Shown one piece after another: positions 19,411-59,217 of a DNA stretch of 64,000 bases. Location of the stretch: NCBI GenBank assembly GCA_024709485.1, contig JANJWO010000074.1, positions 41,385-105,384 on the forward strand, written 5' to 3'. Position 1 is the first letter of the stretch; every line of letters begins with the position of its first letter. The DNA comes from Hydrogenophilaceae bacterium. GTDB taxonomy: Bacteria; Pseudomonadota; Gammaproteobacteria; Burkholderiales; Thiobacillaceae. The notes under the pieces were generated by a model, which worked only from the letters and a program-made list of their open reading frames with translations, searched no databases and had not been told where the DNA came from. The translations under genes were made by a program, and so were the position numbers.

Positions 19411-20745
19411 TCAGACTTTTTCCGCCCACAGGTCATGCTCGGTCGCATCGGTGATGCGCACCTTCACGAACTCGCCGGGCTTAAGGTTTTCCGCGTCGGG
19501 AATAAACACCACGCCGTCGATCTCGGGCGCGTCGGCCGGCGAGCGCGCGACGGCGTCGCCCTCCTCGTCGATCTCGTCCACCAGCACCGTCATTTCGCGG
19601 CCGATCTTGGCTTCCAGCCGGCGCGCGGAAATCTCCGCCTGCTTTTCCATGAAGCGGGCGCGTCGTGCTTCCTTCACTGCCTCGGGCACGGCACCCGGCA
19701 GTTCGTTGGCCTGGGCGCCCGCCACCGGCGAATAGGCGAAGCAGCCGACGCGGTCGAGCTGGGCCTCGTCGAGGAAATCCAGCAGTTCCTCGAACTCGGC
19801 TTCCGTCTCGCCGGGAAAGCCGACGATGAAGGTCGAGCGCAAAGTCAGCTCGGGGCAGGCCGCGCGCCAGGCCTGGATGCGGTCCAGCGTCTTTTCCGCC
19901 GCCGCCGGGCGCTTCATGAGTTTCAATATGCGCGGGCTGGCATGCTGGAAGGGGATGTCGAGATACGGCAGCACCCGGCCGTCCTGCATCAGCGGAATGA
20001 CCTCGTCCACGTGCGGATAGGGATAGACGTAGTGCAGCCGCACCCAGGCGCCGAGTTCGCCCAATGCCGCCACCAGCTCGGTCATGCGCGTCTTCAACGG
20101 CCGGCCGTTCCAGAAACCGGTGCGGTATTTCACGTCGACGCCGTAGGCGCTGGTGTCCTGCGAAATCACCAGCAGCTCCTTGACGCCGGCCTTCACCAGC
20201 GTCTCGGCCTCATGCATCACCTCGCCCACCGGCCGCGAAACCAGGTCGCCGCGCAAGGACGGAATGATGCAGAAGCTGCAGCGGTGGTTGCAGCCCTCGG
20301 AAATCTTGAGGTAAGCGTAGTGATTGGGCGTGAGGCGCACGCCCTGCGGCGGGATCAGGTCGGTGTAGGGATCGTGCGGCTTGGGCAGCTGCGCGTGCAC
20401 CGCGGCCATCACCGCCTCGGTCGCCTGCGGGCCGGTCACCGCCAGCACCGCAGGATGCGCGGCCTCGATCACCCCTTCGCGCGCGCCCAGGCAGCCGGTG
20501 ACGATGACCTTGCCAGTCTCGCGCAGGGCCTCGCCGATGGCGTCGAGCGACTCCTCGACGGCGGCGTCGATGAAGCCGCAGGTGTTCACCACCACCACGT
20601 CGGCATCCTGGTAGGAAGACGAAATCAGGTAGCCTTCGGCGCGCAGCTGGGTGAGAATGCGCTCGGAATCCGAGGTCGCCTTGGGACACCCTAGAGACGT
20701 GAAACCTATACTGGGTGGGCGCTTGGGTTTATGATGCTGCGGCAT
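19411..20745 (-). CDS. rimO: Ribosomal protein S12 methylthiotransferase RimO, 5' end replaced by phage sequence
   Basis: [22 protein letters not shown], radical [18 protein letters not shown] domain. First ~22 codons upstream of the junction (20680-20745) are phage-derived. Confidence 0.95.
20680..20700 (-). other. attL region (phage-derived rimO 5' sequence joined to host rimO)
   Basis: Coding strand ACG TCT CTA GGG TGT CCC AAG | GCG ACC; compare attR ..GTT TCG CTG GGC TGC CCG AAG | ATG CTT. Confidence 0.85.
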
Positions 20746-41176: not shown

Positions 41177-41746
41177 TCAGCCCCTTGCCACCACACGACC
41201 GGGCGAACCGCCGGACAACACCGCGAGCGCGGCGCGTTCCTTGCCGACCTCTGCTTCCCAGTACTCGATCTCCCCCTTGATCTCGTCCGCGCTGCGGAAT
41301 TTCATCACGCGGCCGGCAATGGTGTACTCGGCAACGTGCACGCGGCCGCTCGCCATGTAGGTGGCGTACGCAGCCTTGGCGTCGGCCAGCGCCTTCACCG
41401 CCTGGCTGCGGTTGTCGAGCGTGGCGGCGGTGACCAGGTTGGGGAGGATGGTGATCGGCTGGGATTCGAGCGTGACGCGCTCAAGCGATGCGCCACTGCC
41501 CTTCTCGGCATAAGCCACCAGCGTGGCGCTGCCCGCCGTGTAGTTGGCAGTGTCGGTGGAAGAAAGGGAAACTGTGTGCTCGGTACCCGAGCCAGCGCTG
41601 GTAATATCCTTGGCCGTGCCGCTTGCATACAGCAAGCGATATTTCAGCGACCAGCCATCGGCGGCGGAATGTTCAGGAAGCGTCCGCGTCCAGGTAACGG
41701 TGTCCCCGGCGCGGATCGCGTTCGGTTCAGCAGCGGCATAGTCCAT
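41177..41746 (-). CDS. Head-tail joining protein with gpW-like C-terminal segment
   Basis: SQAVKALADAKAAYATYMASGRVHVAEYTIAGRVMKFRSADEIKGEIEYWEAEV. Confidence 0.65.
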   Translation of the reverse strand: MDYAAAEPNAIRAGDTVTWTRTLPEHSAADGWSLKYRLLYASGTAKDITSAGSGTEHTVSLSSTDTANYTAGSATLVAYAEKGSGASLERVTLESQPITILPNLVTAATLDNRSQAVKALADAKAAYATYMASGRVHVAEYTIAGRVMKFRSADEIKGEIEYWEAEVGKERAALAVLSGGSPGRVVARG

Positions 41747-52755: not shown

Positions 52756-52937
52756 GCGGCGCCTACACCATTACCCGCGCCCAGCTCGAAGGCCTGGCGC
52801 AACTCATCACCACCCTGGACGACGGCGAGGCACCTGCGGATATCCGCATCGAAGCCGCCAGCCAGGCCCACAACATCGTCGCCGAGGTGCTGGGCTGCGA
52901 CGCGAATCTTATCTACCCACAGGAGGACGCAGCATGA
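52752..52937 (+). CDS. Small hypothetical phage protein
   Basis: MSGAYTITRAQLEGLAQLITTLDDGEAPADIRIEAASQAHNIVAEVLG. Confidence 0.55.
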   Translation: MSGAYTITRAQLEGLAQLITTLDDGEAPADIRIEAASQAHNIVAEVLGCDANLIYPQEDAA

Positions 52938-54922
52938 ACGCACCTGAAAAAATCACCACCGAAGAAACCCCCACCGCCAGCTTCGAACTTATCCGGCTGA
53001 CCCAGCTCCACCCATCGCCCACCAACCCGCGCAAGAACTTCCCCGAAGACAAGCTGCAGGAACTGGCCGAGACCATCAAGGACCACGGCATCATTGAGCC
53101 CATCATCGTGCGCCCCTGGGCGGAATGGGACGACCCGAACATGAACTACGAAATCGTCTCCGGCGAGCGGCGCTTCCGCGCGTCCAAGCTGGCCGGCGCC
53201 GAGACCATCCCCGCGCTGATCCGCCACCTCACCGACGACCAGGTGCTGGAAATCCAGGTCATCGAAAACCTGCAACGCGAGGAAGTACACCCCATCGAGG
53301 AAGCCGAAGGCTACCAGCTGTTGATGGACCGTACCGGCTGCAGCGCGGAGGAGATGGCTCACAAGGTCGGCAAGAGCAAGGCCTACATCTACGCCAGGCT
53401 CAAGCTCACCGCCCTGCATGACGGCGCGCGCGACGCCTTCCGCGAAGGCAAGCTCAATGCCAGCACCGCGCTGCTCATCGCCCGCATTCCCGGCAAGAAG
53501 CTGCAGGAAGATGCACTCGAAGCCATCACCGAAGACGGCTACGACGGCCCCATGTCTTACAGGGAAGCCGCGCAATACATCCAGCAGAACTACATGCTGC
53601 GCTTGAGCGATGCGCCTTTCCCGCTGGATTGGGAAGACCTGCCGCGCATCAAATCCTGCGCCGGCTGCTCGTGCCGCAGCGGGAACCAGCCCGAACTCTT
53701 CGCCGACATCGAAAGTGCAGACGTCTGCACCGACCCGCCCTGTCTGGCCAGGAAGCGCGAAGCCTGGGCCGAACGCAAGAGGGCCGAAGCCGAACAACAT
53801 GGGCTCGAAGTCATAACCGGCAAAGAAGCCGAGAAGATCATCCCGCACTGGGTAACCGACGATCTTCAATCTCTCCGCGGCGGTTACCTCGCCCTTGATG
53901 CGCGCTGCGAAGAGGCAGAACCCGTGCGCCCGGTGCCGGCTGAGCCAAAAGAGCCCGAAGGCGAAGATGAAGCCGCCTGGGATGCCTATTACGAAGCCGA
54001 CGACGCTTACGAAAACGCCCGCTATGCCGCCCTGCCCACCTACCGCGAACTGCTCGAAGGCGAAGACATCAAGCGCGTCATAGTGCAGCACCCCAAGACC
54101 GGTGACCTCATCGAATGCGTGAAGAGGGACGAAGCCGAAGTGCTGCTCACCGCCATGGGCAAGATTCCGCAGCCCATGCTGAGCAAGGCCGGCGACAGCA
54201 CCACCAGCCGCGACAACTACGCCAACGACAGCAAGAAAAGAGAGCAGGATGCAAAAGCAGAAACAGCCTACCGCGAACTGCTGCTCAAGCAAATCCTGTT
54301 CAAACACGCCGGCGAGCCGCTTACCGAAGATGACCTGCGCCTCATCGCACACACCATGTGGACGCAGCTCAACTATGACCACCAGACGCTGCTGTGCAAA
54401 GTGTTCAACGACACCGACTCCAGCGACGACGTGCTCGCCATGGGCAAGGCCATCGCAACCGCCAGCATGGAAGACATTAACCGCCTGCTGCTCGCCCTGC
54501 CGCTCATCAAACAGGTGTACGTCAGCTGGTGGCGTGCCCCCGAGGAGAAACCCGAACTCCTGCTCGCCAATGCAAAGCGCTTCGGCATCGATGCGGCCGA
54601 GGTCAGGCAGCAACTGGATGCGCTCAACGCGCCCAAGAAGGCAAAGGCCAAGCCCGCGGCAAAAGCAAAGACCAAAGCCAAAACCGAACCGCAGCCAGAA
54701 GCGCCCCAGGAGCCCGTCACCACCATTGCGGTCGGCGACAAGGTCCGCATCAAGGCAGACGCCAAAGGGCCCAACGGAAAAAAGCGCAAGTGCGCCGGCC
54801 GCGAGGGAACTATCGATGCGATCAGCTTCGACGGCACCCACCACACCGTGCGCTTCGGTGAGAAAGCCACCGACATCGTCACCAACCTCGCGCGTGACGA
54901 GTTCGACAAGGTGGAAGCATGA
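52934..54922 (+). CDS. ParB/RepB/Spo0J-like protein with C-terminal KOW-like segment
   Basis: LTQLHPSPTNPRKNFPEDKLQELAETIKDHGIIEPIIVRP...GERRFRASKLAG; C-terminal VGDKVRIKADAKGPNGKKRKCAGREGTI. Confidence 0.85.
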   Translation: MNAPEKITTEETPTASFELIRLTQLHPSPTNPRKNFPEDKLQELAETIKDHGIIEPIIVRPWAEWDDPNMNYEIVSGERRFRASKLAGAETIPALIRHLTDDQVLEIQVIENLQREEVHPIEEAEGYQLLMDRTGCSAEEMAHKVGKSKAYIYARLKLTALHDGARDAFREGKLNASTALLIARIPGKKLQEDALEAITEDGYDGPMSYREAAQYIQQNYMLRLSDAPFPLDWEDLPRIKSCAGCSCRSGNQPELFADIESADVCTDPPCLARKREAWAERKRAEAEQHGLEVITGKEAEKIIPHWVTDDLQSLRGGYLALDARCEEAEPVRPVPAEPKEPEGEDEAAWDAYYEADDAYENARYAALPTYRELLEGEDIKRVIVQHPKTGDLIECVKRDEAEVLLTAMGKIPQPMLSKAGDSTTSRDNYANDSKKREQDAKAETAYRELLLKQILFKHAGEPLTEDDLRLIAHTMWTQLNYDHQTLLCKVFNDTDSSDDVLAMGKAIATASMEDINRLLLALPLIKQVYVSWWRAPEEKPELLLANAKRFGIDAAEVRQQLDALNAPKKAKAKPAAKAKTKAKTEPQPEAPQEPVTTIAVGDKVRIKADAKGPNGKKRKCAGREGTIDAISFDGTHHTVRFGEKATDIVTNLARDEFDKVEA

Positions 54923-55131: not shown

Positions 55132-55385
55132 CTGAAACCGCCCTCTTCCTCTCCGCCTTCTTCACCGTGTTCCTGCTCGTCTTCCAGCAGCAGAACGTCA
55201 TCCACCGGCACCGCGGCTGGGGAACCATCACCAGCCTTGCCATCGGCACCGCCCAGCTCACCCTGTGGCGCTACGTGCCCGAGGCAACCATCCCCCAGCT
55301 TGCCGCCGCGCTGATCGGCGGCCCCGTTGGGTTTAACGCCGCCCTCTGGGCGCACCCACTCATCGTTAAAAGGACCACCGCATGA
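55128..55385 (+). CDS. Small membrane protein
   Basis: MTETALFLSAFFTVFLLVFQQQNVIHRHRGWGTITSLAIGTAQLTLWRYV; ATGA overlaps on both sides. Confidence 0.65.
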   Translation: MTETALFLSAFFTVFLLVFQQQNVIHRHRGWGTITSLAIGTAQLTLWRYVPEATIPQLAAALIGGPVGFNAALWAHPLIVKRTTA

Positions 55386-55993
55386 AATCCTCCATCGAAG
55401 AAATCACCCCCATCCTCGGCACCGGCATGGGCGGCGGCTACTACGCCGGCCGCATCCGCGTGGGCGAAGACGTGTTCGCCCTCATCGTCGCGCCCAAGGA
55501 CGAAGGCGAGCACCAGCCCGCCATCTGGATACCCAAGGACAAAGACGTGCACGGCGCCAAGTCATACAACGACGGCCTGGCCAACACCCAGGCCATGGCA
55601 GAGGCCGGCAGCAAGCTGGCGAAGTGGGCGCGGGATCTGCGCATTGCCGGACACAACGACTGGTATCTGCCCAGCCAGGACGAGCTGGAGATCATCTACC
55701 GCAACCTCAAGCCAACCACCGACGAGAACTGGTGCTACGCCCGCAGCGGCATCAACCTGCACGCCGTCACGCCGACCCTGCCCTACACGCCCGACTTCCC
55801 CGTGCAGACCGAAGCCGAACTGTTCAAGGCTGGCGGCGAGCAGGCCTTCGAGACGGCCTGGTACTGGAGTTCGACGCAGCACGTCTCGAACTCCTACTAT
55901 GCCTGGTATCAGACTTTCTACGACGGCTACCAGCACTGCTACAACCAGTACAACGAGCTCAGAGCCCGTGCCGTCCGCAGATTAAAAATTTAG
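55382..55993 (+). CDS. DGR target protein 1 (DUF1566-like, C-type-lectin-like fold expected)
   Basis: WARDLRIAGHNDWYLPSQDELEIIYRNL...TAWYWSSTQHVSNSYYAWYQTFYDG; VR1 forms its C-terminus. Confidence 0.92.
   Translation: MKSSIEEITPILGTGMGGGYYAGRIRVGEDVFALIVAPKDEGEHQPAIWIPKDKDVHGAKSYNDGLANTQAMAEAGSKLAKWARDLRIAGHNDWYLPSQDELEIIYRNLKPTTDENWCYARSGINLHAVTPTLPYTPDFPVQTEAELFKAGGEQAFETAWYWSSTQHVSNSYYAWYQTFYDGYQHCYNQYNELRARAVRRLKI
55871..55984 (+). repeat. DGR variable repeat VR1
   Basis: 114 nt aligned to the TR; 13 differences, all at TR adenines. Confidence 0.97.
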
Positions 55994-56020
55994 TCCTTCA
56001 TCCATTTCACAGGAGCCACC

Positions 56021-56488
56021 ATGAGCACCATCACTCTCGAAGCAGTCAAAACCGAGCAAGGCAAGCTGGCCAGGATGATCGCCCAGCTCGAAGAAGACAT
56101 GAAGAAGAGCCCCGGCTTTTTCGAGTACCAGGGCAAGCGCATTCCGCTGGAAACCGGCGAGCGCTACATTGGCACGATCATCAGCGCAGACGGTTCGCGC
56201 AACCACCACATCATCCTGTTGCCCGGTGAGCAGAACAACGTCAAATGGCAAGCGGCAATGGACTGGGCAGCCTCCATCGGCGGCGAACTCCCGGACCGCT
56301 GCGAGTCTGCCCTGCTCTTCGCCACCATGAAGGATGAATTTGAGTCCGAGTGGTATTGGCTTCGTGAGCAGCACGTCTCGTACTCGGACTATGCCTGGTT
56401 TCAGAATTTCACCAGCGGCAACCAGAGCTACAGCCGCAAGAACGACAAGCTCAGCGCCCGTGCCGTCCGCAGATTAATCATTGAGTAA
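56021..56488 (+). CDS. DGR target protein 2 (DUF1566-like)
   Basis: WQAAMDWAASIGGELPDRCESALLFATMKDEFESEWYWLREQHVSYSDYAWF; VR2 at C-terminus. Confidence 0.92.
   Translation: MSTITLEAVKTEQGKLARMIAQLEEDMKKSPGFFEYQGKRIPLETGERYIGTIISADGSRNHHIILLPGEQNNVKWQAAMDWAASIGGELPDRCESALLFATMKDEFESEWYWLREQHVSYSDYAWFQNFTSGNQSYSRKNDKLSARAVRRLIIE
56368..56476 (+). repeat. DGR variable repeat VR2
   Basis: 109 nt aligned to TR 57041-57149; 13 differences, all at TR adenines. Confidence 0.97.
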
Positions 56489-56512
56489 TTCAATTATTTG
56501 GTTTTCATCAGC

Positions 56513-56866
56513 ATGGCTATCCATACCCAACTGCCCATTTACAAGGTCGCTTACGACCTGCTCGATGTTGTCACCGATCTGGTGAAGAACATGCCGCGCG
56601 ATTTCAAGCAGTCCATCGGCGGCAAGATCAGCCAGGAGTGCGTCGAGATCGTGGTGCTGATCTTCCGCGCCAACTGCGCGCGGGACAAGGCGCCACACCT
56701 CGGCGAACTCATCGAGCGCCTGCAGGTGGCCGAGCTGCTGTTGCGCCTCTCGCGCGACAAGCGGCTTATCTCCACCAAGCAGTACGCGCAGGCGGTCGAG
56801 CTGACCAACAGCGTCGGCAAGCAGGCGGGTGGATGGCGCCGTTCCGCACTTTCGCCAGCTTCGTGA
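56513..56866 (+). CDS. avd: Accessory variability determinant (Avd, four-helix bundle protein)
   Basis: LPIYKVAYDLLDVVTDLVKNMPRDFKQSIGGKISQECVEIVVLIFRANCARDKAPHLGELIERLQVAELLLRLSRDKRLIS. Confidence 0.92.
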   Translation: MAIHTQLPIYKVAYDLLDVVTDLVKNMPRDFKQSIGGKISQECVEIVVLIFRANCARDKAPHLGELIERLQVAELLLRLSRDKRLISTKQYAQAVELTNSVGKQAGGWRRSALSPAS

Positions 56867-57035
56867 TGGTCAAGGCCACCATGACTGTGCGAACTTTTAA
56901 TCTGGTCGTGCCGCTGGCTCACAAGGCCACCGCCATGCGCATCACGGATACCGATGGCGAGAGCCATGCCAGGTCTGGCGCAGTTTCCCCGCTGATCGGC
57001 CCAGGCCTTCAGCGAGGCGACGTGGATAGCACGAA

Positions 57036-57149
57036 TCGACGCAGCACGTCTCAAACTCAAACTATGCCTGGTATCAGAATTTCAACAACGGCAACCAGAA
57101 CTACAACAACAAGAACAACAAGCTCAGAGCCCGTGCCGTCCGCAGATTA
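57036..57149 (+). repeat. DGR template repeat (TR), adenine-rich
   Basis: tcgacgcagcacgtctcaaactcaaactatgcctgg...aacaagctcagagcccgtgccgtccgcagatta; 11 AAY codons in the register of the targets. Confidence 0.97.
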
Positions 57150-58260
57150 CCCCGCGCGCCACCCTGCTGATTTTTCTTTCGAGGCCCTGGTGCAAGCCTA
57201 CCTCGACTGCCGCCAGGCCAAGCGCAACACCGCCAGCGCACTGGCCTTCGAGCAAGACCTTGAGCGCAACCTGTGCGCGCTGCATGCCGAGCTGACCGCC
57301 GGCACCTACCAGCCCGGCCGCTCCATCTGCTTCGTCATCACCCGGCCCAAGCCGCGCGAGGTGTGGGCGGCCGACTTCCGCGACCGCATCGTGCACCACC
57401 TGCTCTACAACCGCATCGCGCCCAGGTTCTACGCCAGCTTCATTGCAGACAGTTGCGCCTGCATTCCCGGCCGCGGCACCCTGTACGCCGCCCAGCGGCT
57501 GGAATCCAAGGTGCGCAGCATCACGCAAAACTGGAGCCGGCCGGCCCACTACCTCAAGATGGACCTGGCCAACTTCTTCGTCAGCATCGACAAGCACATC
57601 CTGCGTGAGCTGCTGGCCAAGCGAATCACCGAACCATGGTGGATGCGGCTTGCCGACACCCTGCTCTTCCACGACCCGCGCCAGGACTTTGAATACCATG
57701 GCAAGCCTGCGCTACTCGACAAGGTGCCGCCGCACAAGCGCCTCACCAACCAGCCCGTCCACCTTGGTCTGCCCATCGGCAACCTCAGCAGCCAGTTCTT
57801 CGCCAACGTCTATCTTGATGTTCTCGACCAGCACATCAAGCACCGCATCGGCGCCCGGCACTACATCCGCTACGTCGACGACTTCATCCTGCTGCACGAA
57901 TCGCCCCAGTGGCTGAACGATGCCCGGAAAGAGATCGAGTCCTTCCTTCCTGCGCGGCTCAATGCCCGCCTCAACCCCAGCAAAACCATCCTGCAGCCCG
58001 TTGACCGCGGCGTCGACTTCGTCGGCCAGGTCATCAAGCCCTGGCGCCGCGTCACCCGAAAACGCACCGTAAACGAAGCCATTAATCGCGTGGCCAGCAT
58101 CAGGGCTGAGGATCTATTCGAGACGGCAAACAGCTACTTCGGCCTGCTCGGGCAGGCAACCCGCAGCCACAAGCACCGCGCACGGCTGGCCAATGCAATC
58201 AGGCCGCGTGGACATTCGATTAAGTCTGACCTGACAAAAGCCTACAGGAGACCATCTTGA
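57133..58260 (+). CDS. DGR reverse transcriptase (start codon uncertain)
   Basis: ALAFEQDLERNLCALHAELTAGTYQPGRSICFVITRPKPREVWAADFRDRIVHHLLYNRI...GLPIGNLSSQFFANVYL...YVDDF. GTG 57133 or ATG 57064 possible. Confidence 0.95.
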   Translation: MPSADYPARHPADFSFEALVQAYLDCRQAKRNTASALAFEQDLERNLCALHAELTAGTYQPGRSICFVITRPKPREVWAADFRDRIVHHLLYNRIAPRFYASFIADSCACIPGRGTLYAAQRLESKVRSITQNWSRPAHYLKMDLANFFVSIDKHILRELLAKRITEPWWMRLADTLLFHDPRQDFEYHGKPALLDKVPPHKRLTNQPVHLGLPIGNLSSQFFANVYLDVLDQHIKHRIGARHYIRYVDDFILLHESPQWLNDARKEIESFLPARLNARLNPSKTILQPVDRGVDFVGQVIKPWRRVTRKRTVNEAINRVASIRAEDLFETANSYFGLLGQATRSHKHRARLANAIRPRGHSIKSDLTKAYRRPS

Positions 58261-58616
58261 AACCCCAATTCATAAACCCAGACGTCCACTCTGTCCCCTG
58301 CAACGGCTGCACACTCTGTTGCCACAACGACGCCATCCGTCTGCTACCTGGCGACGATCCCGACCAATACGAAACCCAACCCCATCACTACATGCCCGGC
58401 CAGCTCATGCTCAAGCACAAGCCAAACGGCGACTGCATCTACCTGGGCGAATCCGGCTGCAGCATCCACGACCGCCGGCCGCGCATGTGCAAACGCATGG
58501 ACTGCCGCACCATCGCTCGCGTCTTCACCTGGACCCAGGTACGCAAGATGGAGCGCCGCAACGCCATCAAAATGGCTGTATGGCAGCGCGGAAAGGAACT
58601 TCTCAAGAATGCCTAA
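58257..58616 (+). CDS. YkgJ-like cysteine cluster protein (TTG start)
   Basis: VPCNGCTLCCHNDAIRLLPGDDP...CIYLGESGCSIHDRRPRMCKRMDCR. Confidence 0.85.
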   Translation: MKPQFINPDVHSVPCNGCTLCCHNDAIRLLPGDDPDQYETQPHHYMPGQLMLKHKPNGDCIYLGESGCSIHDRRPRMCKRMDCRTIARVFTWTQVRKMERRNAIKMAVWQRGKELLKNA

Positions 58617-59028
58617 ATCCGCCAAACCCAAGCGCGCCTACAAACCTCGCCCCATCGTCAAGCCCCTCAAGGCCCGCAACGACTGGGTGATGGAAGGCGA
58701 AGTCCATGCTGCGCTGCTCGCGATCGAGGCCGACCAGGTGCAAGAAATCCATCTGGCAAATTTGGGTAGCCATGCAGACCTCGTGCGGCGGCTGGAGACC
58801 GCACCATTCCATGCCCAGCGCCAGGCCCAAACCATCGTGCGTATCCTCGCCGAAATCATGGAACGCAAACCTCCTACCGTCACTCAGCTCGAACAAATCG
58901 CGATTCGTGCGGCGCTGAAGATCACTCTCCCCGTTCTGCGGCAGGCAAGCAACTACGCCGTCGAGAGAGCTGCGCAAGCGGCATGGAAAGCCTACGCGCG
59001 CGATGGAGGGTTGAAGGTAGACCTTTGA
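58609..59028 (+). CDS. Hypothetical phage protein, last ORF of the operon
   Basis: MPKSAKPKRAYKPRPIVKPLKARNDWVMEGEVHAALLAIEADQVQEIHLANLG. Confidence 0.7.
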   Translation: MPKSAKPKRAYKPRPIVKPLKARNDWVMEGEVHAALLAIEADQVQEIHLANLGSHADLVRRLETAPFHAQRQAQTIVRILAEIMERKPPTVTQLEQIAIRAALKITLPVLRQASNYAVERAAQAAWKAYARDGGLKVDL

Positions 59029-59169: not shown

Positions 59170-59217
59170 CTTCGGGCAGCCCAGCGAAACGAAACCGACT
59201 TTTGGAATACTGCTCAT
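59170..59217 (-). pseudogene. Displaced native rimO 5' end (attR)
   Basis: Reverse complement ATG AGC AGT ATT CCA AAA GTC GGT TTC GTT TCG CTG GGC TGC CCG AAG = MSSIPKVGFVSLGCPK, then phage sequence. Confidence 0.88.

Follow-up and report, generated by a model that had tools for sequence, protein, structure and literature searches.

A prophage diversity-generating retroelement with an RT-15 RNA directly ahead of its template repeat

We analysed a stretch of 64,000 nucleotides (the window; positions 41,385 to 105,384 of contig JANJWO010000074.1, GenBank assembly GCA_024709485.1) from a Hydrogenophilaceae bacterium, and describe here the diversity-generating retroelement (DGR) carried by a prophage within it. 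Two target genes, each with a variable repeat (VR), are followed by avd, the structured RNA RT-15, the template repeat (TR) and the gene for a reverse transcriptase (RT), as listed in Table 1. An initial annotation, made by a model from the sequence, had recognised the locus as a DGR, and all the parts that define it were indeed present: Avd, a DGR-type RT, Lcl_C targets and adenine-only variation. We read the element as a complete prophage DGR acting to diversify a pair of small stand-alone proteins with a C-type-lectin fold. While the gene parts stood, the initial annotation had overlooked the RT-15 RNA and the fact that the RT frame is already open from within the end of avd. Our main subject is this RNA and its predicted pairing with the far end of the TR.

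Table 1. Features of the element and its prophage (positions in the window).
Feature	Coordinates	Strand	Description
Prophage carrying the DGR	20701-59196	.	38.5 kb; attachment (att) core GAAACC at both ends; in 5' end of rimO
Target 1	55382-55993	+	Lcl_C/DUF1566, C-type-lectin fold, 203 aa; PF07603 48.8 bits
VR1	55871-55984	+	13 differences from TR, each at a TR adenine
AT-rich 8-bp repeat tract after VR1	55985-56015	+	read in the window; possible target-site element
Target 2	56021-56488	+	Lcl_C-like C-terminus, C-type-lectin fold, 155 aa; PF07603 22 bits, PHROG 4245
VR2	56368-56476	+	13 differences from TR 57041-57149, each at a TR adenine
AT-rich 8-bp repeat tract after VR2	56477-56505	+	read in the window
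avd (accessory variability determinant)	56513-56866	+	PF22296 bAvd E 6.9e-16; PHROG 3206 'Avd protein of DGR'
RT-15 structured RNA	56850-57041	+	Rfam RF03018, 187.9 bits, model 1-192/192
RT	56866-58260	+	PF00078; PHROG 1423, 400 bits; conserved domain from about 57175
Helix 5' strand UAAUCUG	56898-56904	+	then invariant G56905-U56906, where priming is proposed
TR	57036-57149	+	114 nt
G/C-rich stretch before helix	57129-57142	+	proposed region of copying start and of joining between complementary DNA (cDNA) and VR
Helix 3' strand CAGAUUA	57143-57149	+	final TR bases

Template repeat, variable repeats and targets

All 13 mismatches between TR and VR1 fall on TR adenines (A>T 5, A>G 4, A>C 4), and so do the 13 between TR and VR2 (A>G 8, A>C 3, A>T 2), whose homology lacks the first 5 nt of the TR. 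The coordinates and mismatch counts of the initial annotation were thereby reproduced exactly, with 26 of 26 differences at TR adenines; as 41 of the 114 TR bases are A, our arithmetic puts the chance of this outcome at ~0.36^26, or ~3e-12. The two VRs were diversified independently, as had been claimed, and the TR shares the reading frame of the targets, with 11 AAY codons (counted by hand) in register with them. The 3' ends of VR1 and VR2 have GTCCGCAGATTA in common. A search of the host genome for extra TR copies or further targets found none.

For comparison we used a clade set of 155 related loci with 1–4 VRs each, amounting to 320 TR/VR pairs, in which 40.6% of TR adenines were changed, versus 0.09% of C, 0.2% of G and 0.4% of T. 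Because the clade scan penalises non-A changes, a control in which one base at a time was let vary matters here: across 41 regions it returned 77 repeat pairs for A and 0, 3 and 0 for C, G and T, respectively. Over all loci, TR adenines before G were altered in ~1% of cases, compared with 45–70% for AAC, CAA and GAA. Four-fold degenerate sites escape selection on the protein. At these, C, G and T were changed in 3 of 2637 cases; upstream of position −20, such sites were changed in 20/50 cases for A before A, 6/41 for A before T and 0/25 for A before G, positions that are few and not independent. This suggests that an adenine before G, which comes right after the template G in copying, is copied faithfully, unless constraint explains the pattern.

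Both target open reading frames (ORFs) are intact, and the VRs sit in the C-terminal C-type-lectin-fold domain of both proteins. AlphaFold2 (AF2) models of target 1 and target 2, with predicted local distance difference test (pLDDT) scores of 94.5 and 90.2, respectively, each had as best PDB match 8q4e, the Legionella Lcl C-terminal domain; the PF07603 match of target 2 falls below the cut-off. The targets presumably bind a ligand. They are encoded beside ParB and early genes and not beside tail genes, so that a classical tail-fibre role should not be assumed.

Each VR is followed by a tract of ~3 tandem 8-bp repeats (ATTyAnTn), which is conserved among 190 related VRs (lag-8 z = 33). In the DGR of phage BPP-1, the VR is instead followed a few nt later by a hairpin/cruciform (PMC3240598); we noticed none after the VRs here by reading, although no dedicated hairpin scan was run. 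The homing complex might recognise the repeat tract, though this is a guess.

The RT-15 RNA and its pairing with the end of the template repeat

The RT, whose best PDB match is the BPP-1 DGR RT (8ub7, E 1.8e-41), carries the motifs LPIGNLSSQ and YVDD, and both the avd and RT ORFs are intact. We rejected an anti-phage defence RT, for which PADLOC gave only generic or weaker RT models, and also a retron, since the RT matches DGR RTs best and VRs exist.

Between avd and TR lies RT-15, with a match that covers the full 192-nt model, is above the cut-off of 82 bits, and ends at the TR start. The same RNA was found directly 5' of the TR in 9/9 relatives and in 3/3 named phages tested, and 41 of the 56 pairs of its structure, including the long-range helix described below, show change on both sides. 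This arrangement is mirrored in the spacing of the parts: here avd and TR are separated by ~169 nt and TR and RT by 0 nt, whereas the corresponding gaps in BPP-1 are 0 and 144 nt, and in YPCBV-1, BalMu-1, VP58.5, ACA1 and ANMV-1 they are ~10–30 nt (where Avd is annotated) and ~115–180 nt. One locus from a genome of the same order (L180; G037:C29) gave a weak RT-15 match of 28.6 bits, below the cut-off, and perhaps represents a diverged or decayed copy.

Within the conserved RT-15 stretch UAAUCUGGU, the heptamer UAAUCUG is complementary to the CAGAUUA that ends the TR. Across 147 loci, mutual information reaches 0.96 bit at the outer pair of this helix, with at most 0.31 in the other 48 cells. 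In a 70-sequence alignment, the helix covariation score was 0.255, compared with 0.081 when shuffled and at most 0.128 when slid, and 65 cells were changed on both helix sides versus 22.5 in shuffled data (0/500 shuffles). When changes were placed on a tree of the RTs from 146 loci, 12 same-branch double changes fell on the outer pair (1.1 expected), 10 of them compensatory, and 8 on the next pair (1.5 expected), 6 of them compensatory. As the TR/VR homology usually ends at CGCAGAT and many helix bases lie beyond it, coding in the VR does not explain their covariation. The predicted pairing between RT-15 and the TR end is therefore well supported as a real one by these comparisons. An alternative partner within the TR, UCUGGU (56901–56906) with ACCAGA (57094–57099), was favoured by alifold, but was rejected because its one-sided changes are uncompensated, unlike those of the TR-end helix.

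A comparable arrangement was found in a second clade, that of the Bacteroides phages F1 and F2, whose RT is ~34% identical and in which an RNA precedes the TR and the TR-RT gap is short. In phages of this type the partner of the upstream strand lies immediately past the TR end, and the strands differ in sequence between phages yet stay complementary (UUUCCGUAA/UUACGGAAA, AUCUGUAA/UUACAGAU, GUUAUCUG/CAGAUAAC and GUCUGUA/UACAGAC). The best stem averaged 7.17 over 15 distinct strands, compared with 5.81 after swapping partners and 6.73 in the top of 300 permutations; no convincing stem was seen in 2 of the 25 distinct loci of the clade (L192 and L228). We lean slightly towards an architecture shared by a large DGR clade of proteobacterial phages and a second one of Bacteroides phages, in which a primer-bearing, RT-binding domain would lie 5' of the template and be joined to the template 3' end by a covarying helix. 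This would give the parts a retron-like order; the whole RNA would also lie inside the RT frame in most of the proteobacterial phages.

Priming model, activity of the element and its prophage

We consider it likely that this DGR carries an RT-recruiting, priming RNA domain, RT-15, ahead of its template, and that the helix closes the template loop and positions the start of copying. The template source would be a transcript spanning avd, RT-15, TR and RT. Within it, RT-15 would be the putative RT/Avd-binding and priming domain, located 5' rather than 3' of the TR, and its single-stranded UAAUCUG would pair with the last 7 nt of the TR and so close the loop. Reverse transcription would start just upstream of the helix, in the G/C-rich GCCCGTGCCGTCCG, with copying beginning within GTCCG (~57137–57142). 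By analogy with BPP-1, the primer would probably be at or beside the invariant G56905-U56906, between the TR-end helix and the next helix. The RT would then copy toward the TR 5' end, erring at A, and the cDNA would replace VR1 or VR2.

In the BPP-1 sequence, positions 48–54 of the spacer (Sp; AGGUGGU) are complementary to AUCACCU of the TR, 2 nt before A56. It is an adenine within the spacer that primes cDNA synthesis at the TR end in that phage (PMC12875486). Within the 16 nt that precede the CGCAG anchor, adenines of our clade were changed in 2/86 cases, versus 27–60% further upstream, except before G. So few changed adenines near the TR end fit a synthesis start or an integration limit alike, without telling them apart.

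Several points weigh against the priming model. The unchanged adenines at the TR end may reflect protein constraint or a limit of cDNA integration instead of the synthesis start, and the helix could serve another role, for example control of RT translation. In addition, positions 56899 and 57148 do not pair in half of the sequences, and the comparison with BPP-1 takes A56 and G117 as its priming coordinates.

In an ordinary DGR, RT-15 would be merely a regulatory or stability RNA and the helix secondary, with priming proceeding as in BPP-1 from a 3' spacer that overlaps the early RT coding sequence. The RT is of DGR type and closest in the PDB to that of BPP-1, and overlap between a spacer and coding sequence is conceivable. 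Such a reading is nevertheless unlikely, as the region 5' of the TR is the one conserved as RNA, whereas diversity 3' of the TR is codon-like (0.28, 0.26 and 0.51 at positions 1, 2 and 3). Moreover, there is no TR-RT spacer, neither RF03022 (Phage_DGR) nor any other Rfam DGR RNA matched 3' of the TR, and the idea that the 5' part of the RT coding sequence conceals a spacer RNA was rejected, since only codon-like variation was seen there and the predicted pairs are poorly kept, with many uncompensated mismatches.

The helix might also govern RT translation, by coupling from avd or by masking the RT start, and be unrelated to priming. The RT frame is open from ATG 56866, which overlaps the avd stop (TGATG), through RT-15 and TR; in 92 of 125 loci such a frame can be followed into RT from a start codon close to the avd stop, and the helix ends near the RT domain. 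A later start at GTG 57133 was rejected because it is not conserved and the start near the avd stop is commoner. Stops within RT-15 occur in the RT frame in 14 of 116 loci, versus 99 and 66 in the other two frames. Diversity of the RT-15 region by codon position (0.25, 0.26 and 0.29) is not codon-like, so that the frame is kept but its amino acids are not evidently selected, and the frame is broken in 33 of the 125 loci and therefore not essential. A TR that overlaps the RT ORF belongs to a known cassette class, DiGReF group 3 (PMC3521204). A purely translational role appears quite improbable to us, because the helix is retained in loci with a broken frame, in two clades its 3' strand is located where the TR/VR homology ends rather than at a start codon, and BPP-1 too has a TR-tail pairing beside its primer.

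Two pairs of phages in the clade set, L110/L111 and L149/L150, differ in one VR per pair although their RT stretches and flanks are identical; in each pair the differences lie at 14 TR-A sites, and VR and flank are otherwise unchanged. Near-identical phages that differ in a VR at adenines only indicate that the clade is active. The recent activity proposed in the initial annotation thus holds for the clade, while for this very copy it is still what we infer. That annotation had also named VR differences at non-A positions at a similar rate in population data as grounds for refutation; when we made this comparison in these two pairs of relatives, VR changes were at TR adenines only. That the element is a decayed DGR with relic VRs is very improbable: it is known as a single host genome copy, but its ORFs are intact, both RT motifs are kept, neither VR shows a non-A change and close clade members differ at TR-A sites only.

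The element had been described as prophage-borne, which is borne out by an empty site (uninterrupted rimO) in same-genus genomes and by phage structural genes. No direct repeats of at least 18 nt joining the prophage ends were found as att sites, and the site was found via the empty-site comparison. The positions of the GAAACC core (20701–20706 and 59191–59196) give the prophage length and imply that rimO has been given a new N-terminus. At the left end (20701–20745), the prophage replaces the first rimO codons, and the original rimO start is stranded at the right end (59191–59215). The minus strand carries the genes for terminase, portal, head, tape-measure, tail and endolysin proteins, a serine integrase lies at the left, and the DGR is on the plus strand with ParB (52934–54922) and small genes, apart from the tail genes. 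Directly 3' of RT are two further genes (58257–58616 and 58609–59028), one encoding a CxxCxxCC putative metal-binding protein and the other without a significant family match.

Relation to known retroelements

The element resembles that of BPP-1 (mtd-avd-TR-brt; RF03022) in Avd, RT, A-only variation, a G/C-rich element at the TR 3' end, a C-type-lectin-fold target and a TR tail paired with structured RNA. In BPP-1, however, the structured RNA is 3' of the TR, in the 144-nt spacer, and the TR abuts avd, whereas here the RNA is 5' and there is no spacer; likewise, the BPP-1 target is a tail gene, while the two small targets described here are apart from tail genes. In BalMu-1 the Rfam RT-14 RNA lies after the TR, as does the Phage_DGR RNA of BPP-1, and according to a review from 2022 the template of the model DGR is followed by its structured RNA (PMC8867640). 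Relative to the BPP-1 layout, what differs is a structured RNA that leads the TR and pairs with its far end.

RF03018 (RT-15) is matched over its full length and adjoins the RT gene, as in Rfam, where the model ends at the TR start and is typed gene/sRNA; the link to the TR and the TR-end helix are added here. The closest named relatives are Burkholderia phage Magia, Pseudomonas phage Haboob and Shewanella phage QDWS, in which the RT is 67–70% identical, RT-15 is directly before the TR, there are 2–3 VRs and the DGR is outside the tail module, as here. Their targets differ from those described here in length and number, and in Magia the third of them lies at a distance of several kb. The Magia targets (L166 4522–4902 and 10531–10893) are beside repressor and recombination genes, 1–7 kb from RT. 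The Bacteroides uniformis phages Bacuni_F1 and Bacuni_F2, with a DUF1566 target, share the avd-RNA-TR-RT order and the short TR-RT gap, but have no Rfam RT-15 match, and their helix comes after, not inside, the TR/VR homology.

In retrons (msr-msd), the priming RNA, an msr with a branched priming guanosine, is 5' and the template 3', closed by a long-range helix. The likeness to retrons is an analogy in the order of parts; by its RT, Avd, TR/VR and targets the present element is a DGR. Multiple targets, TR/RT overlap and DUF1566 targets were already known for DGRs (PMC3521204). Our literature search found no paper linking RT-15 to DGRs, but the main structural papers were outside this search, so that the helix may have been noticed before and priority is not certain.

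Knowledge of where DGR copying starts comes from BPP-1, with its structured RNA behind the template. If many DGRs carry the RNA in front, the rule would be pairing with the template 3' end rather than the order in which the parts stand, and the RNA-first layout would bear on the relationship between DGRs and retrons. The finding also suggests a function for RT-15, an Rfam family named only for its nearness to RT genes, tells DGR finders what to seek and offers a compact, differently wired diversifier.

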